From Pseudomonadota bacterium (GTDB lineage Bacteria > Pseudomonadota > Alphaproteobacteria > Rhizobiales > Xanthobacteraceae): DNA of 34,980 nucleotides. A program made the translations under genes and the position numbers. The stretch spans positions 1 to 34,980 of the forward strand of contig JACQAE010000104.1 of the NCBI GenBank assembly GCA_016195095.1, given 5' to 3'. Every line of letters starts with the position of its first letter. Position 1 is the first letter of the stretch. The notes below the pieces were generated by a model. That model did not search any database, was not told the origin of the DNA, and was given only the letters and a program-made list of their open reading frames with translations. This document shows positions 1-34,980 of this stretch, piece by piece.

Positions 1-4
1 GGCG

Positions 5-35
5 ATGGAAGAACCGGCAATGCCGGTCCGTCCAT
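5..35. other. Imperfect hairpin in the left flank
   Basis: A perfect 6-bp stem (ACCGGC/GCCGGT, 13-18 with 22-27, 3-base loop) is nested inside a 5-bp outer stem (ATGGA/TCCAT, 5-9 with 31-35). It could be the tail of a transcription terminator or part of a structured RNA from a gene to the left of the window. There is no T-run after it, so its role is open. Confidence 0.3.
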
Positions 36-63
36 TCCATCATGGGTGCCACGGAAAACCTAT
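31..63 (+). repeat. Imperfect direct repeat A, left copy (att-core candidate)
   Basis: This 33-bp stretch matches 22162-22194 in the same orientation at 27 of 33 positions. It lies outside the IS1595 element and left of the integrase remnant, where the outer attachment core of an integrated island would sit. The match is imperfect and no tRNA gene is seen, so attL is a hypothesis only. Confidence 0.35.
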
Positions 64-91
64 TCTCTTTGTATCTCAATTGTTTATGATA

Positions 92-122
92 TTTTTTAAC
101 GGAACTATCACCTTTAGGACTT
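92..122 (+). repeat. IS1595 left inverted repeat with 8-bp target duplication
   Basis: TTTTTTAA at 92-99 is repeated exactly at 3049-3056. Immediately inside, 100-122 is the inverted complement of 3026-3048 with one mismatch in 23 bp (fifth position, A against C). An 8-bp target duplication is the known hallmark of the IS1595 family, so the element's ends are fixed to the base. Confidence 0.9.
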
Positions 123-292
123 AATAGCCTTTAAAAAGGTTCCTTACTTCAATTAAATAAATGGTTTAGTGGTCAAAAAGAGTCTTTTTGACCATCTCCC
201 TGACCAAGCGCAATATAAGGATGCGTCCGTAGCTCAGCCGGAGCCGTCACAAGCCTTAAACCTCGACCTTGAGCCACGAACGCAGGTGGATA

Positions 293-2074
293 CTAGCGTA
301 TTTTGCGCCGCTTGGGAATCGGTTTGTGGACCCCCTGAAGGGGTAAAACGCCCTGTTTTTCCCAAGCCATCGTGGTTTGAACTTTTGCCGGTGTGTCAAA
401 AGCCCGGCCTTTCAGCAAGTCGGCCACGCTACGGATTTGGAGACGCGGGTAGTCAACCCCGAGATAGTGGTACATGCCAGCGTCCGCCGCTTCCTGAAGC
501 ATTCCCTTCGTGGGCTCCTGAAGACAGATGAACCCGGCTATTTCTGAGTCATCTTCTCTTTCTCTTTCAAGTGTCCCACGGAGTTCGCGGACATAAGCTG
601 GCGACAATTTTCCACCCTTAACCGACAGCACCATATTTTTCAGGCCACTCTGCGTTTCGAAATAGAGGCGACCATCAATTCCTTGATCTCCAGAATGTCG
701 ATTGTTCACAAACCCGCCAGACAGTTCGACAACCCAATGTTGGAATTGGCGCGGATCGTGTTCAAATAGTTCTGTGGCACCATCGACGCTCAAGGGAACA
801 CCTGACACTGAATAGTGTTGATCTTCGATCAGACCATATCGTTTGAGCAAAACGTCTCGAACGATCCTGACAGAGAGGATGGCAATGTCGCAACCGATCC
901 ACTTCCGCTTAAGCGTGTGTGCGGCGTAAATCGAGGTCCCGCAACCAGCGAAGGGGTCAAACACAACTTGACCTTCATCGGTGGAGCTTTCGATGATGCG
1001 CTTAAGTAATCCAATCGGCTTCTGTGTTGGATAACCAAGACGCTCGTCTTCGCCATCGAGCCATTTTACGTCTTGGTCAATCTCAAAATCCGTATCCGTC
1101 AGCACGCCAGCGGTCCCCGGCTGATATGCCCACATGTCCTGATAAGGAATGCCGAGACCCATGCGCTGCTTATAAGTGGGACGACCGTCCGGCGAAAATA
1201 CGATCTCGCCAGCTTCATCTAATGCATCAAGCATGGCGTGGGTACTCATGCCTTCACCCTCATTTGGCAAATACTCGCGCAAAGAGGCTGGCACCGCCCA
1301 ATGACGATCACGCGACGAAGGATCGTAATCGCGCCAAGGAACTCCACTTTCACCAGCGCGCCTTCCAGAGCCAGTTAGCTCATTGAGTCGGTATGCGCCC
1401 TTCGCATCCCGGAAACGAAACATCTTCTGCACATACGATTTTGTGTAGGGCGTGCGGCCAGGATGGAAGGTGAACTTGTTCGATTTCGTGTAGAACAAAA
1501 TTACATCGTGAATGGGGCCGTACTGTTTAGTGATCTTGTTATGGCTCGCGCTTCGTCGCCAAATTATCTCGCTGCGAAAATTGTTGTGACCAAATATCCC
1601 ATCCATCATTACTTTGATGTAATGGCTCGCTGCGGGGTCGCAGTGAAGATAGATAGAACCGGTAGGCGCAAGAATGCGCTTCATCTCTAGCAATCGGTAA
1701 GTCATATAGATGAGATACGCTAAGAGTCCGTCCTGCGTTCCTTTGAGAGCCTTGATCCAAGTCACCCAAAACTGAACTAGTGTTTCATCACACCCATAGT
1801 CTCTCATGACCATAGGCATCTTGCGGGCCATCTCTAGCTTTTCAGCATCTAAGTCCCATGCATCACAGAATGCTTCTTCCTGTTCTGGCACAGGGAGGCC
1901 CGTGAGTTGTTTGTAAATGAGATTGTAAGTGCGCTGACTATTAAATGGTGGGTCGAGATATATTAGATCGACCTCACCCTTATTCATTCCCTGCATGATC
2001 GTGAGATTGTCGCCATAGTAGAGGCGATTTTCTTTTTCTTTGCGATGATCGTGTCCGTCGAAAAGATTGTTCAT
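293..2074 (-). CDS. Site-specific DNA methyltransferase fused to PD-(D/E)XK-like domain (IS passenger)
   Basis: 593 residues. Motif IV, DPPF, is at about 41-44 and precedes motif I, FAGCG, at about 375-379; this is the order of beta-class N6-adenine/N4-cytosine methyltransferases. The region between them (about 200-340) probably contains target recognition. The C-terminal part (about 440-540) resembles Mrr-type nuclease domains: a GID motif (Asp about 467) is followed by SVKGG (Lys about 486), although Ser stands where Gln or Glu is usual two residues before the Lys. The protein ends in a basic KRRKIR tail. The ATG overlaps the transposase stop as ATGA, so translation is probably coupled to it. 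There is no separate restriction gene. It may modify or protect the element or host DNA; the target site cannot be read from sequence. Confidence 0.85.
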   Translation of the reverse strand: MNNLFDGHDHRKEKENRLYYGDNLTIMQGMNKGEVDLIYLDPPFNSQRTYNLIYKQLTGLPVPEQEEAFCDAWDLDAEKLEMARKMPMVMRDYGCDETLVQFWVTWIKALKGTQDGLLAYLIYMTYRLLEMKRILAPTGSIYLHCDPAASHYIKVMMDGIFGHNNFRSEIIWRRSASHNKITKQYGPIHDVILFYTKSNKFTFHPGRTPYTKSYVQKMFRFRDAKGAYRLNELTGSGRRAGESGVPWRDYDPSSRDRHWAVPASLREYLPNEGEGMSTHAMLDALDEAGEIVFSPDGRPTYKQRMGLGIPYQDMWAYQPGTAGVLTDTDFEIDQDVKWLDGEDERLGYPTQKPIGLLKRIIESSTDEGQVVFDPFAGCGTSIYAAHTLKRKWIGCDIAILSVRIVRDVLLKRYGLIEDQHYSVSGVPLSVDGATELFEHDPRQFQHWVVELSGGFVNNRHSGDQGIDGRLYFETQSGLKNMVLSVKGGKLSPAYVRELRGTLEREREDDSEIAGFICLQEPTKGMLQEAADAGMYHYLGVDYPRLQIRSVADLLKGRAFDTPAKVQTTMAWEKQGVLPLQGVHKPIPKRRKIR

Positions 2075-2976
2075 GCGGCGACCCCCGCCATGTGGCGCAT
2101 GAGGTCTGAAAACACGTCTGGATTATTGCGATTGTTGTATTTGAAGGCTGTTTCCGAAACGTAGTGATCGGCCCATTTCCGCGAATAAAAATGATGCTGC
2201 CCATACCAAGATCGTTTTACCAGCGACCAGAACCCTTCAATGGTATTCGTATGCGTCTCACCGGAAACGTAGGCGACCTTGTGATCGACAGCGTAGTGAG
2301 TGGTAATGGCCTTCAACCCGCGATAGCCACCAAATTCGTCAGTCATCACGATGGCGGAAGCGCCATCAACGTGCTTGCTGAAAAACGCATTCAATCGGTC
2401 GCTGTTGAGTGGGACATTATTAAACGCGCGCGCAACCACACGCCCATGACGCTCAACGACGCCAACTACTGGTAATTTTGCTGTCCCGCGTCCGCGCTTT
2501 GATTTCTTGGCACCGCTGCCGCCCTTCGGGCCGCCTTTGCGCGGCTTGCCGCCGATATAGACTTCATCCATTTCAACAATCCCTTGGAAGAGTCTTTTTT
2601 GAGCGGGGTCGGTAAGCATCGCGTTCCGAATGCGAAGCGCGAGGCTCCAAGCGGTCTTGTACGGCAGACCTAAGTCGCGTGAGAGTTGGGCATTAGAGAC
2701 GCCCTTTTTTGCGTTCAACATGATCGCCAGAGCAAGGAACCATGTTTGTAGCGGCAAATGCGTATGATGAAAAATTGTGCCAACTGTCGCGCTAAAAGCG
2801 CGAGTGCAGTCTTGGCACTGCCAGCGCGGTAGCGAGTGATCCTTGCTCGCGTGGGTGCAGGTCTTTTCGCTCTTGCAATAAGGGCAGACCACATGGCCGT
2901 TCCAGCGCACCTTTTCGAGATGAGCCATAGCCGATTCATGGTCTGGCCAGCGCCGGGTGATTTCGGTGATCTTCAT
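2071..2976 (-). CDS. IS1595-family (ISXO2-like) transposase
   Basis: 301 residues. The N-terminus has a zinc ribbon of two CxxC pairs (CPYC and CQDC) followed by a helix-turn-helix-like segment. The catalytic core shows MDEVYIGGK (first Asp), MTDEFGGY (second Asp) and NTIEGFWSLVKR (acidic/Asn end of the DDE triad), the pattern of the ISXO2-like transposase domain. The length is normal for the family. The ATG at 2976 follows a good ribosome site (AAGGGGGAT). The stop overlaps the start of the methyltransferase by 4 bases. No frameshift is visible, so it should be functional. Confidence 0.93.
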   Translation of the reverse strand: MKITEITRRWPDHESAMAHLEKVRWNGHVVCPYCKSEKTCTHASKDHSLPRWQCQDCTRAFSATVGTIFHHTHLPLQTWFLALAIMLNAKKGVSNAQLSRDLGLPYKTAWSLALRIRNAMLTDPAQKRLFQGIVEMDEVYIGGKPRKGGPKGGSGAKKSKRGRGTAKLPVVGVVERHGRVVARAFNNVPLNSDRLNAFFSKHVDGASAIVMTDEFGGYRGLKAITTHYAVDHKVAYVSGETHTNTIEGFWSLVKRSWYGQHHFYSRKWADHYVSETAFKYNNRNNPDVFSDLMRHMAGVAA

Positions 2977-3025
2977 AGCTATCCCCCTTGACTCTTATAA
3001 TATAGGGGATCGAATCATCCCTGTC

Positions 3026-3056
3026 AAGTCCTAAAGGTGATAGGTCCGTTTTTTAA
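3026..3056 (-). repeat. IS1595 right inverted repeat with 8-bp target duplication
   Basis: 3026-3048 is the right terminal repeat, matching 100-122 inverted at 22 of 23 positions. It is followed at 3049-3056 by the second copy of the TTTTTTAA target duplication. The transposase promoter must lie between this end and the start codon at 2976. Confidence 0.9.
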
Positions 3057-3117
3057 TGGGCCAGATCGCGAACCAGTGCACTCTAAATTAGCACAAATTG
3101 CATACGTTTGTACCTGT

Positions 3118-3137
3118 TTTGATCTCTCGGTGCACAC
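3118..3137 (+). repeat. Direct repeat B, left copy (integrase arm-site candidate)
   Basis: A 20-bp segment containing CTCTCGGTGCACAC, matched at 19 of 20 positions and in the same orientation at 22094-22113. It lies just upstream of the integrase remnant; further GTGCACAC-like and GCGCACAC words occur at 3141-3148 and 3162-3168. Repeated words next to an integrase gene are typical of arm-type integrase binding sites. Inferred, not proven. Confidence 0.4.
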
Positions 3138-3169
3138 GTAGCGCACACGAAGAGGTGGAGTGCACACGG

Positions 3170-3645
3170 ATGGCGACGATCATACAACTCACCTCCGGAA
3201 ACTGGCGCGCCCAAGTGCGCCGCAAGGGCCGATATGTGCCGAGACTTTCCGCCGCCGCAAGGACGCTGATGAGTTGGCGCTCGACACCGAGCGCTGCATT
3301 GACCGCGGCGTCTCGCTTCGACCCCGCACGCGTGAAGGAATTCGCACGCTCGGTGATCTGATCAATCTTCACATTGAGGACATGCAAGAGGTTGGTAAAA
3401 CCCCTCGCCGCTCCAAGGCCGCTGTGATGGAGGCGCACAAGACTTCTCTAGGCGGTGTCAAGATTCCTGATCTCACCCGCCAGCGTCTGATCGAGTACGG
3501 CAAACGTCGCGCAAAGCAAGGCGCGGGGCCAGCTACGCTATCAATCGACCTTTCGTTCATCCGCACGGTCCTTCCTCACGCCGCTGCAGTCCATGGAATT
3601 GAAACGTCGACCGAAGATGTCCGTTTGGCGCGTATTGCGCTGATA
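3170..3645 (+). pseudogene. Tyrosine site-specific integrase, 5' part, frameshifted and truncated
   Basis: The reading starts at ATG 3170 behind GAGGTGGAG with an N-terminal segment typical of alphaproteobacterial phage-type integrases (SGNWRAQVRRKGRYV). One G appears to be missing near 3236, after which homology continues in the next frame: ETFRRRKDADELAL, then a SAM-like core-binding domain (GDLINLHIEDMQEVGK, GPATLSIDLSFIRTVL). The sequence stops matching near 3643, where IS630 DNA begins. The catalytic domain with the R-H-R-Y residues is therefore absent. It was probably the integrase of the surrounding island and is now dead. Confidence 0.8.
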
Positions 3646-4000
3646 CTAATTCCCAGTAATTAGAACCCATTCGCCCGGCGGCGCGTGCCGATGGACTTGT
3701 TCCTCCAGGGCTAATCGGTGAGCTTGTTCCAAGCATCACAGCAATGGTCGACAAGAACGTCGTGAGATTTGAAGACGCGATTGGAGAGCCAGTTGTCGTG
3801 CATGAGCCGCCAGATATTTTCTTGCGGGTTGAGTTCGGGGCATTTCGGCGGCAAGGGGATGAGGGTGATGTTGGGTGGCACAACGAGGCTCTTCGCCATG
3901 TGCCAACCAGCCTGATCGAACAAGAGCACGGGGTGGGCACTGGCGCAACGGCTTTGGCGATTGGCGAGCGTGGCGCGAACCGACTCGGTGTGGTGGCGGT
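3644..4000 (-). pseudogene. IS630-family transposase, C-terminal fragment
   Basis: Reading leftward from about 3990 to the stop at 3711-3713, the frame gives ASAHPVLLFDQAGWHMAK, then PPNITLIPLPPKCPELNPQEN and an IWRLM segment. These are the second Asp and the PELNPxEN catalytic region of IS630 transposases. The N-terminal half is missing, and a stop occurs upstream in this frame near 4002. The left junction at about 3643-3645 cuts the integrase and begins TACTAATTCCCAG, consistent with TA-targeted insertion. Its right side is replaced by IS4 DNA. Confidence 0.8.
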
Positions 4001-4945
4001 TTTACCTCTTCTTTCAGTTCGTCCGGCTCGACGGTGCGCACGCTGCGCGCGTGGTAGTCGAGCTGCCGGGCCTTTCCGGCAACCCGTAGGTTCTGGCGAT
4101 CGATCGCACGAACTGGGATTTCGGCAAGACCACGATCAACATCCTGATGATCTCGGTGACAGGGAACGGCATGGGCATCCCACCGCAGTGGACGCTGCTG
4201 CCAACGGCGAGAAACTCGCATAACTCGCAGCGGACCGAGCTTCTGGATCGTCTCCGCGCGGCGTTTCCGGACAAGAAGTTCGCGGAGTTGATGGGCGACC
4301 GCGAGTTCATCGGTAATGCCTGGATGACCTATCTGCAGCGCCAGAACATCCCCATTCACCTTACGCTTGCGCGGGAATCAGCGCGTCCTGCGCGAGGGCT
4401 ATGCCGCCATGTCGATTTCCGCCATCGCGCGGCATCTCAGAACCGGGGAAAGAATGATCGACAAGGGCGGTTGCCGGCTCGGCCGCCACGACGAGACATT
4501 GTCCGCGCCGCTGCGCCTCGTGGTGACGCGGCTCGCGTCCGGCAAACTGTTAGCGTGGCCTGTTTCGGCCGCGCGCATCGTGCGCTCGCCCGCTATCGCC
4601 AATGCTGGACCATCGAAACCATGTTCGGCAATCACAAGACCAAAGGCTTCGCGCTGGAGGCAACCCACCTGACCAACCCGGGCAAGCTGTGCACCTTGCT
4701 CGGGCTCATGGCTTTCGCCGTGGCTGATGGCGAAAACCGGCGTCGCCATGGAGCGCCTGCATGCAATTCCAAACAAAAAACACGGTCGGCGTGCGCGGTC
4801 ACCATTCGCTCTCGGCCTGAACACGCTCCGCAAAATCTTCGTTGCTGCAAGTCCTGATCCAATAAACGAATTCCTCGATCAACCTTTGTCCCCACAACTA
4901 CCCGCGAAAACCATGCGCTTTTTGGCTTTCCGACAGGGAGTCGAG
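4001..4945 (+). pseudogene. IS4-family transposase remnant, multiply disrupted
   Basis: Plus-strand homology to an IS4-family DDE transposase. VLAIDRTNWDFGKT is the first catalytic Asp region (about 4093) and lies directly after an in-frame TAG at 4087. It continues as GNGMGIPPQWTLLP and DREFIGNAWMTYL, then shifts frame near 4372 (RVLREGYAAMSISAIA), shifts back near 4555 (YRQCWTIETMFGN, the Tyr/Glu signature region) and shifts again near 4735 (LHAIPNKKHGRRAR, ending PAKTMRFLAF about 4925). The N-terminus is lost at the junction with the IS630 fragment. It is a dead element whose exact ends are not resolved. Confidence 0.8.
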
Positions 4946-5057
4946 TACGATGAGTCGAGAGACTCCTCGTGACGGAAAAGCCGCACCTCAATGCAGCATG
5001 GCGAATCCCAGAAACGATAGCGCTCTATCATCTGACCGTCCGCGGTCGCTTGGTGCC

Positions 5058-7280
5058 TCAAGTCTTCAAAGCTCTCAGCACCCGCTCCGGAGTCATCGGC
5101 ATATGACGAAGCCGCACGCCCGTCGCTGCGGCAACCGCGTTGCTGATGGCAGGCGCTACGCCTGGAGTCGCCATCTGGCCCACCCCCGTCGGGTTGTTGG
5201 GGGTCGCGACAAGTTCGACATGGATGTCGGGAATGTCCCTCATACGGGGGACTTGGTAATCGTAGAAATTCGACTCCTGCACCTCGCCATTCGCCACGGT
5301 AATGCGTTCGCTGAGCGCTAGGCCCAACCCGTAGACGATGCAGCTTTCAGTCTGCGCCACGACGTTGTCGGGTTGCACGGCGATCCCGCAATCCAACGCC
5401 GTCCAGATGTCGTGCACTCGAATCTCGCCGTCCTTTGGATTAACCGTCACCTCGGCCACAGTCGCAACGTGTGTGCCAGTGTAGTCCATGTAGGCGAAGC
5501 CTAAGCCGCGGCCGTTCCGTTTCCGGCGCCAATCGGACATCTGCGTGACCTTATCCACGACGGCTCGCGCCCGCGGCACGTTCTTGAGCAGGTCGAGACG
5601 GAAGACGACCGGATCGATGCCGCGTTTGGCGGCCAGCTCATCGATGAACGCTTCGACGGCAAACTTGTTCGGACCGACACCGACGCCGCGCAAAGCCGAA
5701 GTTCGTATGCCGGAGTCGTTTTGCAAAAACTCACCGTGCCGGTTCGGGATTTCGTAGGGACTCGCCTCCATCCCTCGCATTGCGATCACGTCGCGCCTCT
5801 TGGCCATTTCGAAGAACACGGGATCCTGAAAGGCCGTAATGCCGTCCCCGGCATGTCGATGATGCCACGCCACCAGCTTGCCGGACTTGTCGAACCCTGC
5901 TCGCAGGAAATGCGCGGTCAAGGGCCGAAATCGGCCATTGCGAACATCGTCCTCGCGGGTCCACATGGTCTTGACGGGACGTCCGCGCGTCTCGTTGGCA
6001 AGCAGGACCGCGTCGACAATGAACTCCTCGTCGCGATGACCGCGCCGGCCGAAGCCACCGCCCAACAGCATGTCGTGAAGTTTGACCTTGTCGGGTGTGA
6101 TGCCGAGCGCCTTGGCTGTCGCTTCCACTGCCATGAACTGCGACTGCGTCCCACACCAGATTTCGGCGGCACCGCCCGACGTCGGAACCAGCGCAACGGC
6201 GTTCAGCGGCTCCATCTGAGCATGATAGGCATAATCGCAATGGTATTCCGCGCTGTAGACGCTATCCGCTTGCTGGAAAGCGGCCGCGGCATCGCCAACT
6301 TTCTCCCAATCGACACCCGGCTGCGCTAGATTGCGGGCGATGACGGCATTGACTTCAATTCCTTTTTCACTGCTGAAGCCCCAGGCCTTACCATCTCGCG
6401 ACCATGTGATTTTAAGTGCCTCCTTTGCGGCAAAAGCTGCTTCTGGGGTCTCGGCGATCACTCCAACACCATGGGGCAAGCTTACAAGCTTGATTACGCC
6501 CCTTATTCGCTGGGCGGCGGCATCATCGACCCTTTGCAGGCTGCTACCCTCGACAGGCGCGCGTGTGATCGCACCGTAGAGCATGCGAGGCAGCTGCACG
6601 TCGATGCTATATTGCGCGGTGCCGTCGACCTTGCTCGGCAGTTCGACGCGCATGACGTCCTTGCCGATTAACCGGAATTCGCCCGGCTTCTTGAGCTCGC
6701 TGTCTTTGATGTCTGGCGCCTTGGCCGGCAGCTCGGCAAACGCTGCAATCTCGCCATATCCGAAGCGTCGTCCCGACCTGGCGTGGATGACGACGCCGGG
6801 CTCGGTGGTCAGCTCCTCGACCGGCACGCCCCATTTTTTCGCTGCATTCTCGATCAGCACGCGCCGCACCTGGGCGCCGAACAAACGTAACGGCTTGTAA
6901 TAGCCCCTGACCGCGGCACTGCCGGCAGTGTACATCATGCCGCCAAAGCCAGGATTTCCGTAGATCGCCTGGATCGGCGGCGCCGGCACGATCTTTACCT
7001 TCGTCCAGTCAGCATCGAGTTCCTCGGCAAGAATCAGCGGCAGGGATGTGAGCGAGCCTTGCCCCATCTCCGCTGCGGGCGACATGATGTGCACCGAGCC
7101 ATCAGTGCTGATAGCTACCCATGGCGTGACGGTGATATTCTTATTCCTTACGGTCGTCGCGCTCGCGCCAATCCGTCCGGCCTCGACCAAACTGAAAGTC
7201 AGACCCGCCACACCGACCATGAAGCTGCGCCGGGTGACGCTGCTCTTCGACTGCCTGGTCTTCTTCGAATCGATCGCCAT
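5058..7280 (-). CDS. Molybdenum hydroxylase large subunit, isoquinoline 1-oxidoreductase beta (IorB) type
   Basis: 740 residues, the usual IorB length. The N-terminus has a twin-arginine export signal (SVTRRSFMVGVAGLTFS, RR at 17-18). The molybdopterin-cytosine-dinucleotide-binding fold is marked by GGGFGRRG (mid-protein) and ALRGVGVGPNKFAVE. The protein would oxidise an aldehyde or hydroxylate an N-heterocycle, passing electrons to the [2Fe-2S] subunit encoded just upstream (3-base gap). The conserved C-terminal GVGE motif, which supplies the catalytic Glu in xanthine dehydrogenase-family enzymes, reads GVGQMATP here. It is the last gene of a DUF6282-iorA-iorB operon. A GGGAGG ribosome site supports ATG 7280. 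The substrate is unknown. Confidence 0.85.
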   Translation of the reverse strand: MAIDSKKTRQSKSSVTRRSFMVGVAGLTFSLVEAGRIGASATTVRNKNITVTPWVAISTDGSVHIMSPAAEMGQGSLTSLPLILAEELDADWTKVKIVPAPPIQAIYGNPGFGGMMYTAGSAAVRGYYKPLRLFGAQVRRVLIENAAKKWGVPVEELTTEPGVVIHARSGRRFGYGEIAAFAELPAKAPDIKDSELKKPGEFRLIGKDVMRVELPSKVDGTAQYSIDVQLPRMLYGAITRAPVEGSSLQRVDDAAAQRIRGVIKLVSLPHGVGVIAETPEAAFAAKEALKITWSRDGKAWGFSSEKGIEVNAVIARNLAQPGVDWEKVGDAAAAFQQADSVYSAEYHCDYAYHAQMEPLNAVALVPTSGGAAEIWCGTQSQFMAVEATAKALGITPDKVKLHDMLLGGGFGRRGHRDEEFIVDAVLLANETRGRPVKTMWTREDDVRNGRFRPLTAHFLRAGFDKSGKLVAWHHRHAGDGITAFQDPVFFEMAKRRDVIAMRGMEASPYEIPNRHGEFLQNDSGIRTSALRGVGVGPNKFAVEAFIDELAAKRGIDPVVFRLDLLKNVPRARAVVDKVTQMSDWRRKRNGRGLGFAYMDYTGTHVATVAEVTVNPKDGEIRVHDIWTALDCGIAVQPDNVVAQTESCIVYGLGLALSERITVANGEVQESNFYDYQVPRMRDIPDIHVELVATPNNPTGVGQMATPGVAPAISNAVAAATGVRLRHMPMTPERVLRALKT

Positions 7281-7283
7281 GAC

Positions 7284-7739
7284 TCATCCCTCCCGCGCGG
7301 CACGTTCAATGGCGCGGACAATGCGCGGATAGGTTCCGCAGCGGCAGATGTTCGTGCTCATGTGCTCGACAATTTCAGCGCGGCTTGGCCGCCGATTTTT
7401 TGCGAGCAGATCGGCCGCGGCCATGATCTGCCCCGACTGGCAATAGCCACATTGCGGCACATTCTCCGCAAGCCACGCCTTCTGCACCGGGTGTTGGCCT
7501 TGCGGGGAAAGCCCCTCGATCGTGGTGACGGACTTACCCGCGACCTCTTGCACCGTGATCTGACACGAGAACGCGCGGCTGCCGTCGACATGCACCGTGC
7601 AGGCTCCGCAAAGGCCCGCGCCACAGCCGAACTTGGTGCCTGTCAATTTCAGATGTTCGCGGATCGCCCACAGCAGCCTTGTGTCCGGCAACACCTCGAT
7701 GCTCACCCGCTTGCCATTCAAGTCGAACGCAATCGCCAT
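7284..7739 (-). CDS. (2Fe-2S)-binding subunit, IorA/CoxS type
   Basis: 151 residues. The N-terminal plant-ferredoxin-like domain carries [11 protein letters not shown] and a further Cys in AFSCQ (first [2Fe-2S] cluster). The C-terminal all-helical domain carries CGYCQSGQ and [10 protein letters not shown] (second cluster). Both clusters are complete. It is the electron-transfer partner of the molybdenum subunit immediately downstream and would pass electrons to a cytochrome or other acceptor. A CoxM-type FAD subunit is absent, which fits the two-subunit IorAB class. ATG at 7739 follows AAGGGA. Confidence 0.9.
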
Positions 7740-7820
7740 TTATTTTATCCCTTCGAAAGAGAGATTGAGCTTTCAGAGACGATTTGCTGAGTGATGCGGC
7801 CTAGAAGGCAAGGTCGTGCA

Positions 7821-8648
7821 TCAGGGATTCAATCCAAGCAAACGCGCGGGATTCTTCCGCGACATCAGATCAATGTCCACGTCACTGATGCCCTCGCGCT
7901 TCAGGCCCTCCATGAACGCCTTGATCCCGTGCGGGGCGGTGGGATTGAAAAACTGGCCAAGATCCGATGAGAGGATCATGTTGGCCGCTCCGACCGCGTT
8001 GATCACCGCCGCGTGGTCTGCAATCGTAAAACGGCGCTGGCGGCTGAAGAACGGGCCAAGATGCGATTCCGGCCCCTTGAACATGCCGAGGACAGTGTGT
8101 TCGACGAACGCCCCGAGACGCACCGCCTCTTTCATCTGTTCGACGGTCATGTTGATCGGATCCTGGATCGCGTGGGTCACGACGATTCCCTGAATGCCGC
8201 GCGCCCTTCCCTCGCGGATGATCATGAGTGCTTCTTCGGAGGAAACATGGGAAGTCGCGAGCACGAGCTTGTGCTTGGCGATGGCGTCGAGCACTGCCAG
8301 GGTTTCCGGCAACAGCCGCTGGCCGTCGGACACGCGCACCGCCGTCCTGTTCAGTTTGTAGAACCGGATCTGCTGCTCCGCGTCGCTACTCGGAAACCAC
8401 ACAACTTTGGCCGTGCGGCCGGCGAGCCTGGCGAAACCTTCGACCGCGGCGGGATTCATTCCTCCCACATACGTGTTGAGGACGAGTCCGCCGAAGACTT
8501 CGATCCCGGGCACCATCTTGCGGGCGAGGTAGGCGCGGCTTGCACTCTCGAAGGTGGTTGGCTTGATTACGATGGCACGCATGCCGTAGTCACGAGCCTT
8601 GCGGGCGAGTTCGATATCATCCAGGGAAGACCCTCCGAAGGTGGCCAT
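7821..8648 (-). CDS. DUF6282 (amidohydrolase-like) family protein, N-terminally short
   Basis: 275 residues from ATG 8648, chosen because AAAGGAGAGA sits correctly upstream; a longer reading lacks such a site. The sequence resembles DUF6282 TIM-barrel proteins: SLDDIELARKARDYGMRA, then VPGIEVFGGLVLN, LATSHVSSEEAL, VVTHAIQDP, SSDLGQFFNP, and a C-terminal SRKNPARLLGL typical of amidohydrolase-like folds. The HxH metal motif usually found at the N-terminus of this class (DLHVHSGP-like) is missing; the protein starts just after where it should be. The later His residues are present. It is the first gene of the operon with iorA (81-bp gap) and iorB. It might hydrolyse the oxidation product, but activity without the HxH is doubtful. 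Confidence 0.65.
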   Translation of the reverse strand: MATFGGSSLDDIELARKARDYGMRAIVIKPTTFESASRAYLARKMVPGIEVFGGLVLNTYVGGMNPAAVEGFARLAGRTAKVVWFPSSDAEQQIRFYKLNRTAVRVSDGQRLLPETLAVLDAIAKHKLVLATSHVSSEEALMIIREGRARGIQGIVVTHAIQDPINMTVEQMKEAVRLGAFVEHTVLGMFKGPESHLGPFFSRQRRFTIADHAAVINAVGAANMILSSDLGQFFNPTAPHGIKAFMEGLKREGISDVDIDLMSRKNPARLLGLNP

Positions 8649-8976
8649 GTCTCTCTCCTTTGGCGCGAGTCCTGCACAAGCATTGCGCGCTCGACTGAGC
8701 GGCGGCCCGCGTGAGGACCTTTGTCCAGCGACCAAGCCCAATGACTCCAAGTGCGCCCCGCCGGTTCGTCAGATGGGCTCCTGCTGGGCGCTTGCCTAAA
8801 TTGCCTGTGCCAAATTTGCCTGCCGAAATCACTATAATTGTCATATCGTCGTACAATATTCCTGTCAAGGCAGAAAACGTAACCTGTTGCCGTGAACGGC
8901 TGGGCACGCTTCAACGCTGCGCGACAGGACCAACCGTAACGACTGCGAGCATCATGAAGATACCTCGAACAATCCA
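8649..8976. other. Upstream region of the DUF6282-iorAB operon
   Basis: 328 bp without a recognisable gene. It contains the minus-strand promoter/operator copy at 8837-8874. The right half (about 8890-8976) shows no feature until the IS1380 homology starts. Confidence 0.5.
8837..8874 (-). promoter_or_regulatory. Promoter/operator copy 1 (minus strand)
   Basis: Read on the minus strand, these 38 bp match 9241-9278 on the plus strand at 34 of 38 positions. They contain TTGACA, 17 bases, then TATGAC (a weak -10). The operator-like core spans 8837-8857 and has ATTGTA and a degenerate GACAAT as its arms. It faces the DUF6282-iorAB operon. The overlap of operator with spacer and -10 suggests repression by a shared regulator, possibly of the GntR/FCD type; this is inferred. 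Confidence 0.6.
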
Positions 8977-27297: not shown

Positions 27298-29340
27298 TCA
27301 GCGAATTGGCGATGAACTGCGGCGCGCGATGACCGAGCGGACCGCCTCGGCGACACGCTCCGGCGTGAAGCCGAAATGCGCGAACAGATCTGGGCCCGGC
27401 GCGGATTCGCCGAAGCGGTCGATCCCGATCACGGCGCCGCTGCGGCCGGCGTAACTCCACCAGCCCCGCGTCACGCCGGCCTCGACGGCGACCGCCGGCA
27501 AATGCGGCGGCAGCACGCTGCGCCGCCAATCCTGGTCCTGCCGCTCGAACGCCTCGACACAGGGCATCGAGACCACCCGCGTGGCAAAACCCTCGCCGGC
27601 CAACAATGCCGCGGCAGCGCCAGCAAGCGCGACCTCCGAACCCGTGGCGATGATGATGACGACCGGCGGCCGGTCCGGCTCGATCAGGACGTAGCCCCCG
27701 CGCCGGATCGCTTCGATTTGGGTGGCGATACGCGACTGATGCGCCAGCGCCTGGCGCGAAAGGATCAGCGCCGTCGGCCCGCCGTCGCGGGTGACCGCCG
27801 CGTTCCAGGCGACCGCCGTCTCGACCGCATCGCAGGGACGCCAGACGTCGAGATTGGGGATGAGGCGCAGCGATTCCGTGTGCTCGATCGACTGGTGCGT
27901 CGGCCCATCCTCGCCGAGCCCGATCGAATCATGCGTGAACACATGCACCACGCGTTGGCGCATCAGGGCGCTCATGCGAATGGCATTGCGCGCGTAGTCG
28001 GAAAACACGAGGAATGTCGCCACAAAGGGCAGGAAGCCGCCATGCAGCGCGATGCCGTTGGCTATCGCTGTCATGGCGAATTCGCGCACCCCGTAGAAGA
28101 TCGTATTGCCCGCCGCATCGCGCGTGATCGGGCGGGTGAGATTGTGGGTCGTGAGGTTGGAATGCGCGAGGTCGGCGGAGCCACCGAAAAGCTCGGGCAA
28201 TTCGCCGGCGAGCGCTGCCAGCGCATTCTGACCTGCCTTGCGGCTGGCGATGGTCTCGCCCTTGGCCGCGACCGCCGCGACGCGTTGGCGCGCCGCATCG
28301 GCGAAGCCCGGCGGCAATCGCGCATGAAAGCGACGGGTGAACTCCGCCGCTAATTCCGGATAAGCGACTTGGTAGCGCTCGAAGCGCTGGTTCCAATCGG
28401 CCTCAAGCACGCCGCCCTGGCGGCGCGCATCCCAGCTCTCGGCAATCGCGGCGGGGATGTCGAATGGCGCGTGCGGCCAAACCAAATCCGCGCGCAGGCG
28501 CGCAATCTCCTCGGCGCCGAGCGGGGCACCGTGGGTATCGTGATGGCCTTGCTTGGTCGGTGCGCCGCGCCCGATCACGGTCTTGCAGCACACCAGGCTT
28601 GGCCGCGCGGTCTCGGCAAGCGCGGCGGCGAGCGCGGTGTCGACGGCGATCGGATCATGGCCGTCGACATTGCGAACGACATGCCAGCCATAGGCCTCGA
28701 AACGCATGGCGCTATCGTCGGGAAACCATTCCGCAACCTTGCCGTCAATGGAAATGCCGTTGTCGTCATAAAGCGCGACGAGCTTGCCGAGACCCAGGCG
28801 GCCGGCAAGCGAGGCTGCCTCGTGGCTGATGCCCTCCATCAGACAGCCGTCGCCTACGACCACAAAGGTGCGATGATCGACGATCTCGTGGTCGGGGCGG
28901 TTGAACTGGGCCGCTAGCGTGCGCTCGGCGATCGCCATCCCCACCGCGTTGGCGAAGCCCTGGCCGAGCGGGCCGGTCGAGGTCTCAACCCCCGGTGTCA
29001 CGCCGAATTCAGGATGGCCGGGCGTCTTGGAGTGCAGCTGACGAAAACGCCGCAACTCGCCCATCGGCAAGTCGTATCCAGTCAAATGCAACAAGGCATA
29101 GAGCAGCATCGAGGCGTGGCCATTCGACAGCACGAAGCGATCGCGGCCGGGCCAGGCCGGGTTCGCCGGATTGTGTCGCAAGTAGCCGCGCCACAGCACG
29201 GTGGCGACTTCCGCCAATCCCATCGGCGCGCCCGGATGGCCGGACTTCGCGGCCTCGACGGCATCCGCCGCGAGAATGCGCAGTGCCGCGGTGAGCGGCT
29301 GGTCGAGTCCGGCGCGAATATGCGTCGTCATCACGTTCAT
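27298..29340 (-). CDS. cbbT: Transketolase
   Basis: 680 residues, full length. The N-terminal thiamine diphosphate domain has [23 protein letters not shown] and [13 protein letters not shown] (cofactor motif). The middle Pyr domain contains [15 protein letters not shown], and the C-terminal domain ends near [12 protein letters not shown]. It transfers two-carbon units between sugar phosphates in the regenerative phase of the Calvin cycle. ATG 29340 with GGGAG upstream; 14 bp after cbbP. Confidence 0.96.
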
Positions 29341-29354
29341 CGACTGGACTCCCG

Positions 29355-30230
29355 TCAGGTGCCACGCCGCCGCTTTTCCACGAGCTGAAGGATCATTGGC
29401 GTCAGAATGAGCTGCATCGCGATGTCGAGCTTGCCGCCCGGAATGACGATGGAATTGGCCCGCGACATGAAGCTGCCGTCGATCATGGTCACGAGGTAGG
29501 CGAAGTCGATGCCGCGCGGATTGCGAAAACGGATCACCACCATCGATTCATCGGGCGTCGGGATCCAGCGCGCGACGAAGGGATTGGACGTATCGACCGT
29601 CGGCACGCGCTGGAAATTGATATCGGTCTCGCTGAATTGCGGACAGATGAAGTGCAGATAGTCCGGCATGCGCCGCAAGATCGTATCGACGATCGCGCCT
29701 TCGGTGTGGCCACGGTCGGCGCGGTCGCGGTGATTCTTCTGGATCCATTCGAGATTGATCACCGGCACGACGCCGATCTTCAGATCGGCATGGCGGGCGG
29801 TGTTGACGCCGTTGGTGACGACGGCGCCGTGCAGCCCCTCGTAAAACAACAGCTCCGTGTCCGCAGGCAGCGGCTCCCAGTCGGTGAAGGTGCCGGGTGG
29901 CTTTCCATACATTTCCGACTGCGCGATATCGTGGACGTAGTGGCGCGTGCGCCCGCTGCCGCTCTCGCCATATTCGCGGAACACCGCCTCAAGCTCGGCG
30001 AGGATATTGGCGTTCGGACCGAAATGACTGAAATTGTAATTGCCGTTTTTCATCTCTTCGGCCATCGCCGCCTTCATTCCGGCGCGGTCGTAGCGATGGA
30101 AGGCGTCGCCCTCGATATAGGCCGCGGCGATGCCTTCGCGTCGGAAAATCTGCTCGAACGTGCGGCGCACCGACGTGGTGCCGGCGCCCGAGGAGCCCGT
30201 AACCGAAATGATGGGATGCTTGACCGACAC
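29355..30230 (-). CDS. cbbP: Phosphoribulokinase
   Basis: 291 residues, the typical bacterial length. The start codon is GTG at 30230, supported by TGGAG at suitable spacing. The P-loop variant is GSSGAGTTS (about 12-20). Then come [10 protein letters not shown] (catalytic Asp region), [21 protein letters not shown] and [14 protein letters not shown]. It phosphorylates ribulose-5-phosphate with ATP to make the RuBisCO substrate; bacterial forms are often activated by NADH. The gap from cbbF is 29 bp. Confidence 0.96.
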
Positions 30231-30259
30231 AACAACTCCATTGGACCGCGATGAAGCGC

Positions 30260-31303
30260 TCAGACGAACAAACCGCGCCGTGCGAAGAGCGGCGAGCCTT
30301 CGCCCTTGGGAAGCGGAGCGAGGTGATAACGTTCGAGACGCTCGACCTCCTCGCGCGCGCCGAAGACGAATGGCACGCGCTCGTGCAGCGAGCCCGGCAT
30401 GTAATCAAGCACCGCTTCGCGGCCGGTCGATGCGGCGGCACCGGCCTGCTCCATGAGAAACGCAATGGGGTTGGCCTCGTAAAGAAGGCGCAGGCGTCCG
30501 TTGCGGTAACCCTGGCGCGCGTCGCCTGGATAAAGATAGACGCCGCCGCGCACCAGGATGCGATGCGCCTCCGCGACCATCGAGGCGATCCAGCGCATGT
30601 TGAAATTCACCGCGCGCGGACCATCCTCGCCAGCGAGGCAGTCGTCGAACCATGTGCGTACCGGCGGGTCCCAATGGCGGTAGTTGGAGGCGTTGATGGC
30701 GAATTCACGCGCGTGCGGCGCGACCCGCACTTTCGCCGCCGTCTGCCAGAACGTGCGGCTAGCGGCGTCAAGCGTGAATATATCGGTCCCGGCGCCAAGC
30801 GTGAGCGCGAGCGCGGTTTGCGGGCCATAAATGACATAGCCCGCCGCCACCTGTTCGCGCCCGGCGCGCAGAAACGCCGCCGGGTCACCGCCGTCGCTGC
30901 CGTGCGGCGTGTTGAGCAGCGAAAAGATCGTGCCGACCGACACGTTGGTGTCGATATTCGATGAGCCGTCAAGCGGGTCGAGCGCGACGATGATGGGCGC
31001 GCCAGGCGCGAGCGCGAGCGGCGCGTCCATTTCCTCGGACGCCATGGCCGCGACCGGCGCGCTTTCCAGCGCCTTGGCCAGAAGGTCGTTGGCGCGCACG
31101 TCGAGCTCGGTCTGGAAATCGCCGCCCGCGATATCGCTGCGTCGCGCCGCCAGATCGCCGGCAAGCGGCCCGACGCCCACGATGCGGGCAATGTCGCGGC
31201 ATGCCGCGACCAACGCCGCCACGGTCGATGCCGCCGCCATGCGCCGGCCATCCGTGCCCGCCCACGACCCAAGATATTGTTCCAGACTGACTTTCTTATT
31301 CAT
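30260..31303 (-). CDS. cbbF: Fructose-1,6-bisphosphatase, class I
   Basis: 347 residues from ATG 31303; an upstream reading would overlap cbbX. Class I FBPase motifs: ASEEMDAPL (metal Glu), the metal loop ALDPLDGSSNIDTN, YVIYGPQTALALT, and the substrate-site segments ASNYRHWDPP, YLYPGDARQGYRNGRLRLLYEANP. In autotrophs this enzyme commonly also acts on sedoheptulose-1,7-bisphosphate. It lies 34 bp after cbbX. Confidence 0.95.
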   Translation of the reverse strand: MNKKVSLEQYLGSWAGTDGRRMAAASTVAALVAACRDIARIVGVGPLAGDLAARRSDIAGGDFQTELDVRANDLLAKALESAPVAAMASEEMDAPLALAPGAPIIVALDPLDGSSNIDTNVSVGTIFSLLNTPHGSDGGDPAAFLRAGREQVAAGYVIYGPQTALALTLGAGTDIFTLDAASRTFWQTAAKVRVAPHAREFAINASNYRHWDPPVRTWFDDCLAGEDGPRAVNFNMRWIASMVAEAHRILVRGGVYLYPGDARQGYRNGRLRLLYEANPIAFLMEQAGAAASTGREAVLDYMPGSLHERVPFVFGAREEVERLERYHLAPLPKGEGSPLFARRGLFV

Positions 31304-31337
31304 GACGCCCCCGAATAACGCGTCGCCGTTGAACGGC

Positions 31338-32243
31338 TCAGCTTGCAAATACGCGACTTGCCCTAATGTCCTCGGCATCGATTGTCTGCAGAATTTCGCG
31401 ATCGGCGATCGCGCTCCCCTCGCACAGCCGCATGGCGTGACGCAGTCGCGCGCGATCAAGCGCATTGCGGATCGAACGCGCGTTGGCAAATCCAGGCTGC
31501 CGGCGCCGCCGCACGATGTATTCGCTCATGGCCTCGCGAGCGGCCGGGCTCAAGCGATAGTGGCTGTCGCCCACAAGCGTCTCGGCGATGGCGAGAAGCT
31601 CGCCGTCGTCATAGTCGGGAAAATCAATGTGATGCGCGACACGCGAGCGGACACCCGGGTTCGACGCAAAGAAGGTATCCATGCGCGCGCGATAGCCGGC
31701 GAGAATGACGACCAGGTCCTCGCGTTGATTCTCCATGACCTGCAGCAGGATTTCGATCGCCTCCTGCCCATAATCCTTCTCGTTCTCCGGGCGATGCAGA
31801 TAGTAGGCCTCGTCGATGAACAAGACGCCGCCCATCGCGCGCCGCAGCACCTCCTTGGTCTTTGGCGCGGTGTGGCCGATATATTGGCCGACGAGATCGT
31901 CGCGGGTGACCGCGACAAGGTGGCCCCGGCGCACATAGCCCAGGCGATGGAGGATATTGGCCATGCGCAGCGCGACCGTCGTCTTGCCGGTGCCCGGATT
32001 GCCGGTGAACGCCATGTGCAGCGTCGGCGCGCCGGAAGTCAGCCCGACCTGCTCGCGCGCCCGCGTCACCAAAAGGAAAGCCGCGATCTCGCGCAGGCGC
32101 TGCTTGACCGGGGCGAGGCCAACGAGGTCGCGATCAAGCTCCGCGATCGGCGTGGCGATATCGGTTTCCGCGCGCAGCGCCTTGAGGTCGACGACCTCCC
32201 CCGCCACCGCGCCGAGCGTTGTCGCGGCATTCGCAATGGTCAT
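31338..32243 (-). CDS. cbbX: CbbX, AAA+ red-type RuBisCO activase
   Basis: 301 residues. The AAA+ core has Walker A GNPGTGKT (about 80-87), Walker [11 protein letters not shown], the pore-loop [11 protein letters not shown] and a sensor/arginine-finger region [15 protein letters not shown]. CbbX hexamers pull the C-terminal tail of red-type (form IC/ID) CbbL to eject inhibitory sugar phosphates and are activated by RuBP. The ATG overlaps the cbbS stop (ATGA), so its translation is tied to the small subunit. Confidence 0.96.
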
Positions 32244-32698
32244 GATCGACGGCCCCGCGGCTCGGTTGCAGGCTCGACGGACGGGTAGCGCTGGCCAGCC
32301 GGCCGGTCGAGACTATAGGCGCGCACGGCGTAGCGGATCATGCGACCCGCGGCTTCGACGCGCTCGAGGCGAAAGCCAGGCTCCTCGGCGGGACGCTGCA
32401 CGAAGAATGACAGGCGCACCGTTTCCCATCCGCGCGTCGAATCGAATGCGCTGACGCGGACATAGGTGTTGGGATTGGCCTCGCGACAGGCCTTGATTTC
32501 GCTCATCGCGCCCGCCGCGTCGCGCAGGTCGAACATCGGCGGACCCCACATGTCCCAATAGGTGTTGCGCGGATGCGGATCGTCGGTGAACTCGATGCTG
32601 ACCGCCCAGTTCTGCTGCAGGCAGTATTCCAGTTGCGCCACGATCTGCCGATCCGTGAGATCGGGCAGAAAAGAAAACGTACCTTGGGTCACGCGCAT
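32240..32698 (-). CDS. cbbS: RuBisCO small subunit, red type
   Basis: 152 residues from ATG 32698 with AGGAGA upstream. It opens with the form IC signature [16 protein letters not shown], then [20 protein letters not shown] and [13 protein letters not shown]. The C-terminal part after about 120 ([20 protein letters not shown] and an Arg-rich end) corresponds to the longer hairpin tail of red-type small subunits. It caps the L8 core of the L8S8 enzyme. 32 bp from cbbL; overlaps cbbX by four bases. Confidence 0.95.
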
Positions 32699-32730
32699 TG
32701 TGGGTCTCCTGCGGAACGGTCCGCTTCGCG

Positions 32731-34291
<1,561 letters not shown>

Positions 34292-34980
34292 ATGTCGCCC
34301 GCGATGCGCGATACCACCAAACCTGCTCCCGCCAAACGCAACGGCGGCAAACGCGACAGCGCCGACCGCCACGTTGCCAAGCGCGATGGCACCAAGCGCA
34401 ATGGCACCAAGCGTGACGACACGCTGCGCAACGTCACGATCAGGCAATTGCGGCTGCTGACCGCCGCCGCGCATGGCGGAAGCTTCGCGACCGCGGCAAC
34501 GGCGTGTCACGTCACGCCGCCTGCGGTCACCATGCAGATGCGCCAGCTTGAATCCAACGCCGGACTACCCCTGTTCGAGCGCAACGGCCGCGGCTTCGCC
34601 TTGACCGAGGCCGGCCGCGAGGTGCTGGCGGCCGCCGAGCGCGTCGACGCGGTGCTCGCCGATTGCGCCGCCGGCCTCGCCGCCCTCAAGTCGCTCGCCG
34701 GCGGGCGCGTCACCGTCGGCGTCGTGTCCACGGCGAAATATTTCGCGCCGCAAATGCTGGCGGCTTTCGCGCGCACGCATCCCGGCATCGATATCGAACT
34801 CGTGGTCGGCAACCGCCAGGACACGATTGCCGCGTTCAAGGGCGGCCGCCTCGACGTGGCCGTGATGGGGCGCCCGCCCGAGGATATCGGCGTCGAGAGT
34901 GCGCTGATCGGCGATCATCCGCAGGTGATCATCGCACCGCCCAGTCACCCCATGGCGCGCGCGCGCGCGATCTCGCCGCA
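34292..34980 (+). CDS. cbbR: LysR-type regulator CbbR, N-terminal part (runs off the window)
   Basis: 229 codons are visible, open to the right edge. After an unusual basic leader (about 1-48, repeats of KRDGT/KRNGT type) comes the LysR winged helix-turn-helix: TIRQLRLLTAAAHGGSFATA, CHVTPPAVTMQMRQLESNAG, LPLFERNGRGFALTEAG. It continues into the periplasmic-binding-like effector domain (VTVGVVSTAKYFAPQMLAAF, RQDTIAAFKGGRLDVAVMGR). CbbR senses metabolites such as RuBP, phosphoenolpyruvate or NADPH in other bacteria and switches on the cbb operon. The divergent position next to cbbL makes the assignment secure. No alternative ATG lies just before the HTH, so the extension is probably translated. 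Confidence 0.92.
   Translation, partial: MSPAMRDTTKPAPAKRNGGKRDSADRHVAKRDGTKRNGTKRDDTLRNVTIRQLRLLTAAAHGGSFATAATACHVTPPAVTMQMRQLESNAGLPLFERNGRGFALTEAGREVLAAAERVDAVLADCAAGLAALKSLAGGRVTVGVVSTAKYFAPQMLAAFARTHPGIDIELVVGNRQDTIAAFKGGRLDVAVMGRPPEDIGVESALIGDHPQVIIAPPSHPMARARAISP
34334..34423 (+). repeat. Degenerate 15-bp tandem repeat in the cbbR leader
   Basis: Units of the form AAGCGNAAYGGCACC: 34379-34393 and 34394-34408 differ at one base, 34409-34423 is more diverged, and earlier AAACGC units begin at 34334 and 34349. They encode alternating Lys-Arg-Asp/Asn-Gly-Thr blocks. Confidence 0.75.

Follow-up and report, generated by a model that had tools for sequence, protein, structure and literature searches.

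Insertion sequences are usually viewed as containing little beyond a transposase. The locus described here raises the question of what a DNA methyltransferase with a nuclease-like tail does as the fixed second gene of such an element, a position that it holds in two transposase clades. It lies in a window of 34,980 nucleotides (the whole stretch of DNA analysed: positions 1 to 34,980 of contig JACQAE010000104.1, assembly GCA_016195095.1, from an alphaproteobacterium of the Xanthobacteraceae), in which a complete IS1595-family element occupies positions 100-3048 and carries two genes, both on the minus strand. We regard with moderate confidence, as the best explanation as a whole, that this is a transporter insertion sequence (IS) whose enzyme methylates or restricts DNA with an exchangeable specificity.

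A complete element with empty alleles

The original prediction of a complete IS1595 element, with 22/23-bp inverted repeats and an exact 8-bp duplication, was borne out. The ends are 23-bp repeats, CGGAACTATCACCTTTAGGACTT (distal to the transposase; 100-122, plus strand) and CGGACCTATCACCTTTAGGACTT (transposase-proximal; 3026-3048, minus strand), identical at 22 of 23 positions with one mismatch, and they are bounded by the 8-bp target duplication of the IS1595 family, with exact copies of TTTTTTAA at 92-99 and 3049-3056. A repeat search placed the arms 98-127/3021-3050 (30 nt, 90% identity) at the top of the nine inverted pairs in positions 1-3500, and an automatic ends search gave the window 19/20 for the inverted ends and 8/8 for the duplication. 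The transposase-proximal end of a related element, L054, is identical to that of the window across 24 bases.

Evidence for movement of the unit came from uninterrupted alleles and from additional copies. The right flank was searched in 149 genomes of the family set, including the window's own, and 36 matched. Comparison of seven of these loci (L134-L140) with the joined flanks showed that five align across the junction, while two match only further inside the flank. The five uninterrupted alleles (G321, 81.6% identity over 684 columns; G339, 71.2%; G351, 75.4%; G382, 75.9%; G373, 77.7%) hold a single target copy of 8-9 bp. The expectation that such an allele would restore one TTTTTTAA was therefore upheld for the single copy, in five of seven loci, and not for its letters: the site in G321 reads TCCTCTCAA, a copy of about the right length that differs from TTTTTTAA, which is not itself restored because the alleles are only 71-82% identical to the window. 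In one Rhodobacteraceae metagenome-assembled genome (MAG), the relatives L069, L070 and L072 occupy different places, are 99.1-100% identical where they align, and have their homology starting within four bases of the start of the repeat. Since L069 runs into a contig end, another IS interrupts L072 and no duplication flanks L070, they show several copies of the unit rather than clean recent jumps. Together, the empty alleles of the window and these three copies show that the whole unit moves. Among 60 further genomes of the same family, a search for close copies yielded no more than two short matches (115 and 26 bases), and all plasmid matches to the transposase were below 60% identity.

A recurrent two-gene layout in divergent relatives

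A scan with five transposases confirmed 305 relatives; the 80 best were examined. Counting a methyltransferase as adjacent when its start lay no more than 400 bases after the transposase stop, we found one in 30 of the 80; the remaining loci carried a protein of a P63C-type cluster (21), a C5 methyltransferase (1) or were of other kinds (28). Family matches elsewhere in L064, L073, L097 (starting about 420 bases after the stop), L112 and L115 were not counted, nor was L030, where the methyltransferase lies on the strand opposite to the transposase and no ends were found, so that it decides nothing. With the window, two loci of genome G279, from the same class, and the viral contigs L040, L044 and L047, the 30 relatives make up 36 two-gene loci; a further viral contig, L046, which holds the transposase end only, stands outside this set.

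The ends search required 20-bp inverted ends identical at no fewer than 17 of 20 positions and an 8-bp duplication matching at 7 of 8 or better. Such ends were recovered at 50 of 86 loci (window included) and at none of 172 controls shuffled within 50-base blocks. Complete ends were present at 27 of the 35 testable methyltransferase-positive loci (24 with an 8/8 duplication), L040 having been left out as it is cut by the contig start; the eight loci without passing ends decide nothing. The search for the distal end began at the transposase stop, which left room for an end ahead of the methyltransferase; nevertheless, the methyltransferase stop precedes the distal end in 27 of 27 complete methyltransferase-positive elements. 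The recurrence of the layout and ends, put forward as a check in the original prediction, was thus found, and the arrangement that would have contradicted it, a methyltransferase outside the repeats, occurred in none of these 27. A+T makes up 85% of the duplications in the 50 complete elements and 48% of the 200 bases upstream. The window's element belongs to a family of two-gene elements that is old by divergence, occurs in several phyla and inserts into A+T-rich targets. Hosts are named after record titles, the longest supporting records being those of L109 (a 5.4-Mb Caldilineaceae record), L111 (a 1.7-Mb Xanthobacteraceae contig) and L083 (the isolate Vannielia litorea).

Complete ends also enclose unlike methyltransferases: the C5 enzyme of L064; a methyltransferase-HNH fusion in L029 (5842-7200), where an HNH nuclease domain replaces the PD-(D/E)XK tail and both terminal inverted repeats and target duplication are present, the transposase being a distant outlier; and a type I/IIG-like chain of 941 aa (HSDR_N_2 + N6_Mtase) in L110 of the Poribacteria (4254-8975; ends 20/20, duplication 8/8). 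Other Poribacteria cargo comprises a chain of the same type as that of L110 in L092 (which runs off its contig and gave no ends), an FGE-sulfatase in L104 and a trypsin-like peptidase in L094. In a sister transposase clade, a P63C-type protein lies near the transposase in L061 (5379-6296) and 20 more loci; the assignment was made by blastp cluster, and the Pfam match was run on L061 alone, whose protein also matches the phage family phrog_2384.

Coupling of the transposase and methyltransferase genes

The transposase gene (2071-2976, minus strand) codes for a 301-aa DDE transposase with an N-terminal zinc ribbon, matching NF033547 (E 1.4e-51; 175 bits, cut-off 75) and PF12762 (E 7.2e-32) and, in the ribbon, PF12760 (E 8.4e-9; 35.7 bits, cut-off 25.4). 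The predicted overlap of its stop with the start of the passenger, as ATGA (2071-2074, minus strand), is present in the window, and a stop/start overlap recurs at 33 of the 36 two-gene loci (ATGA in 30, GTGA in 3; 32 tallied by script and L087 from its printed junction), rows that are not independent since L069/L070/L072 and L101/L106 are near-copies. The exceptions are L029 (+12) and L101/L106 (+39). Because the ATGA overlap is conserved, we infer that the two proteins are probably co-translated from one message. Upstream, a promoter-like pair, TTGACA-17-TATATT, matches at 11 of 12 letters, with the -35-like hexamer (3022-3027, minus strand) extending across the inner border of the transposase-proximal repeat and the -10-like hexamer at 2999-3004 (minus strand). 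Among the 50 complete elements, a pair scoring at least 9/12 is found at the transposase-proximal end in 24 and at the distal end in two. Downstream of the methyltransferase, a perfect 12-bp hairpin (170-194) is a possible terminator.

A tRNA fragment suspected at about 221-244 was dropped, as Rfam gave nothing up to E 5 for positions 1-4000 and the window has no tRNA.

Exchange of the target-recognition region among elements

The passenger gene (293-2074, minus strand) codes for a protein of 593 aa, whose parts are conserved to very different degrees among family members. Averaged over columns, conservation is 0.74 in the N-terminal catalytic half, which contains the motif IV DPPF and spans residues 15-200 (1475-2032, minus strand), and 0.75 in the second catalytic half; the value is 0.64 in the tail domain and falls to 0.38 in residues 201-340. 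Residues 205-333 (1076-1462, minus strand) correspond to the target-recognising part of beta-class enzymes. Over the 465 pairs of 31 proteins, mean identity is 0.61 in the backbone and 0.23 in this region, the two being correlated at only 0.14.

Individual pairs reveal exchange in both directions. In L101 and L106, from two Chloroflexi MAGs with near-identical transposases, the backbones are 90% identical and the recognition regions 10%; their DNA aligns at 93.5% up to methyltransferase residue 162, is unalignable to residue 259 or 328, and then resumes at 88.5%. Likewise, L070 and L075 share 88% of the backbone and 26% of the recognition region. Conversely, the recognition region is the more similar part between members of two different clades, L028 and L040 (67%, backbone 55%), and between L059 and L122 (69%, backbone 57%). 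The window's transposase is 70% identical to that of L053, yet its recognition region is closest to that of L060 (51%). The exchange of the target-recognition region between elements is a newly found feature of this family. Module exchange is a known route by which restriction-modification enzymes change specificity, and the exchange seen here argues for a modification or restriction-modification role with a changing specificity.

Fold of the methyltransferase and of its PD-(D/E)XK-like tail

In profile searches, the methyltransferase matched PF01555 (E 3.3e-38), and it shows the beta-class motif order, with DPPF at residue 41 preceding FDPFAGCGT at residue 372. A model of the whole chain (predicted local distance difference test, pLDDT, 78.5) is similar in fold to RsrI, MboIIA and M.BceJIV (Z 23). 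The protein is probably an N6-adenine methyltransferase; the cytosine-N4 enzyme 8s9m fits the model almost equally well (Z 20.8).

The tail holds a PD-(D/E)XK-fold domain in residues 430-555 (410-787, minus strand), in which Ser484 replaces the Glu. A model of residues 417-566 (pLDDT 88.7) matched PD-(D/E)XK proteins at Z 8-10: 1y88 was best (10.1), followed by the small subunit of BspD6I (9.5), AspBHI and MspJI (9.2) and FokI (8.5), with AF1548 also in the Z 8-10 range. Of the first 34 fold matches, 32 are restriction enzymes or other nucleases, among which we count Can2, Cdn1, Card1 and EndoMS, which we take to be nucleases; the other two, 1y88 (the first) and 1xmx, carry "unknown function" in their titles. 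RNA polymerase subunits enter from the 35th match (Z 6.4). Up to E 1, no PDB sequence matched the tail profile. Hence, the proposed architecture of a beta-class methyltransferase with a PD-(D/E)XK-like tail stands as far as both folds are concerned, whereas the catalytic Glu is lacking.

Common history of the two genes

In a transposase tree of 87 rows built by a quick method, the four passenger labels require 7 changes, against a mean of 40.4 when shuffled, and all 13 rows of the window's clade carry the methyltransferase. The transposases closest to that of the window are those of L053 (70%) and L054 (69%). Transposase and methyltransferase distances are correlated across 30 elements (Mantel r 0.855), as well as in the window's clade (12 elements, 0.857) and in the rest (18 elements, 0.614), with none of 2000 permutations reaching the observed value in each case. 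We left out the outlier L029, the near-copy L106, the incomplete near-copies L069 and L072, and the incomplete L047 and L121. The two genes have thus co-diverged. A viral scan with a single transposase returned no relative, which is no evidence of absence: of the viral contigs reached with the methyltransferase, three encode a transposase of 51-54% identity and another the final portion of one.

Proposed function and its alternatives

We propose that transcription would start from the promoter with its -35 box at the inner border of the transposase-proximal repeat, that translation of the second gene would re-initiate at the ATGA on the shared message, and that the enzyme would methylate a short motif wherever the element lands. 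In the branch with Glu in the tail, the protein probably cleaves unmethylated sites as well, acting as a single-chain restriction-modification enzyme that would make loss of the element costly and repel other DNA; the window's Ser-type branch more likely modifies only, marking the element and its replicon against restriction. Swapping the single recognition region would re-target the entire enzyme at a stroke, and selection favouring new specificities has probably driven such swaps repeatedly. As a transporter IS requires, the gene between the repeats is assumed to be dispensable for transposition. Only tentatively do we extend this to a view of the IS1595 lineage as a self-moving carrier of single-chain restriction-modification-like enzymes, co-translated and with a recognition module swapped also between the two main clades, each jump being able to install a new methylation pattern.

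Several observations weigh against this proposal, among them the state of the tail. The D...(D/E)xK catalytic set is incomplete in the window, which reads D467...S484-V-K486, and the acidic position is taken in 12 of the 31 aligned sequences by Ser (9, counting the window) or Gln (3). It is Ser in both of two plasmid relatives, and Ser and Gln, respectively, in two phage relatives. Because Ser484 holds this position, DNA cutting by the window protein is doubtful, and the restriction half may be dead in its branch. In Pfam, the isolated tail is matched best by NA-iREase1, a model named as an inactive endonuclease (27.7 bits, cut-off 27; 24.1 bits on the whole chain, under the cut-off), which is also found, at E<=0.1, in 26 of 31 tails. 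The Ser/Gln readings and this Pfam match also favour a rival in which the enzyme modifies only, its tail being a DNA-binding or structural remnant in all members, and acts as an anti-restriction methyltransferase as in phages; a Streptomyces phage relative (37% identity over 93%) also reads SVKGG. We give this rival a substantial chance, if somewhat short of even, and for the window's own branch it overlaps with the explanation that we prefer. In the family as a whole it has to contend with the invariance of D463, D467, K486 and the two following glycines in 31 of 31 sequences, with ExK in 19 of 31, with the match of Mrr_cat (PF04471) to 27 of 31 tails at E<=0.1, and with a tail conservation of 0.64 per column, above expectation for an idle remnant.

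The remaining difficulties concern the bond between gene and element. In a methyltransferase tree of 43 rows, of which 33 come from elements and 10 (eight viral contigs and two chosen genome loci) lack a transposase, the two kinds are mixed, requiring 9 changes versus 9.2 when shuffled; therefore, the gene also circulates outside the elements. On the same side are 15 of 289 genomes of the class (own included) that match the methyltransferase at E<=1e-40, of which only the window's genome and G279 (two loci) have the transposase adjoining (flanks up to 1.5 kb), and the named phages that carry the family. Moreover, the window's genome has one copy of the element, and nearly all relatives are MAGs, so that single host assignments can be wrong. 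A phage methyltransferase captured and retained by chance as a neutral hitch-hiker would fit the finding that the window's nearest methyltransferases by tree path are the viral contigs L038 and L039, without transposase, though by plain identity L038 (58.7%) ties with the element L060 (59.7%). We nonetheless consider such retention very improbable, as layout, overlap and long open frames are conserved across divergent elements, passenger labels change rarely on the transposase tree, and unlike methyltransferases occur inside complete relatives. Alternatively, by analogy with Dam, which times IS10 transposition, the enzyme could methylate its own repeats or promoter and so time transposition, for which the tight coupling and co-divergence of the two genes might speak. 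This, too, we deem very improbable: recognition regions differ between elements whose transposase and ends almost coincide (L101/L106) or are similar (L070/L075), and because the region is exchanged, a main role in methylating the element's own ends, and with it the earlier suggestion of a coupling of methylation to transposition, is disfavoured in comparison with a role with changing specificity.

If our proposal is true, small transposons would be vehicles rewriting methylation patterns and restriction barriers. The near-identical enzymes with different recognition regions constitute a natural set for testing module exchange, and the variation between Glu, Gln and Ser in the tail offers a test of the transition from a cutting to a non-cutting enzyme.

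Genomic surroundings

The element lies between the start of a dusA-like gene (1-91, minus strand), which has a relative in L134, and an integrase-like gene (3098-3663), both named by eye; the latter is one open frame in L134 and is split between frames in the window. Its location is of the dusA-site island type described in PMC4482086. Beside the integrase remnant are two transposase-like remnants, again named by eye (open reading frames 3711-3929, minus strand, and 4147-4857, plus strand). Further away, at 27298-34980, inspection by eye suggests a Calvin-cycle-like cluster with transketolase, phosphoribulokinase, CbbX, the RuBisCO large subunit and a divergent LysR regulator.

Comparison with known systems

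Insertion sequences with passenger genes are a known kind; the variant carrying a methyltransferase is new to us. Reviews of transporter IS mention methyltransferases as passengers, and an earlier report is possible. The excerpts of the IS1595 and transporter IS literature consulted contained no description of a methyltransferase passenger in IS1595. The facts on the family come from PMC8101967, PMC5704250, PMC3129680 and PMC7986276: its members have an N-terminal zinc ribbon, except the IS1016 group, and make an 8-bp target duplication (PMC8101967), and tISCpe8, a lincomycin-resistance element, and MTnSag1/tISSag10 are described as mobilisable (PMC5704250). With these, the window's element shares the IS1595 DDE transposase, internal passenger genes and A+T-rich targets, differing in that it carries one methyltransferase that overlaps the transposase.

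The methyltransferase of the Streptomyces phage Ejemplo (ON526985) is 37% identical to the window's over 93% of the query, with DPPF and FCGCGT motifs and a tail reading SVKGG, whereas the phage stretch examined lacks a transposase among its six annotated features. RsrI, MboIIA, CcrM and M.BceJIV share the methyltransferase fold (Z 22-23 over 217-249 residues) and lack the tail, the alignments stopping by window residue 426. The family's tails resemble Mrr-type restriction endonucleases in their PF04471 matches, while that of the window scores 20.6 bits against a cut-off of 21 and has Ser at the ExK/QxK position. Finally, although the window's protein departs from single-chain type IIG restriction-modification enzymes in its beta-class order, its C-terminal nuclease fold without the acidic residue and its location in an IS, it joins a methyltransferase, a recognition region and a nuclease fold in a single chain, as they do, and its specificity would likewise change by module swap.

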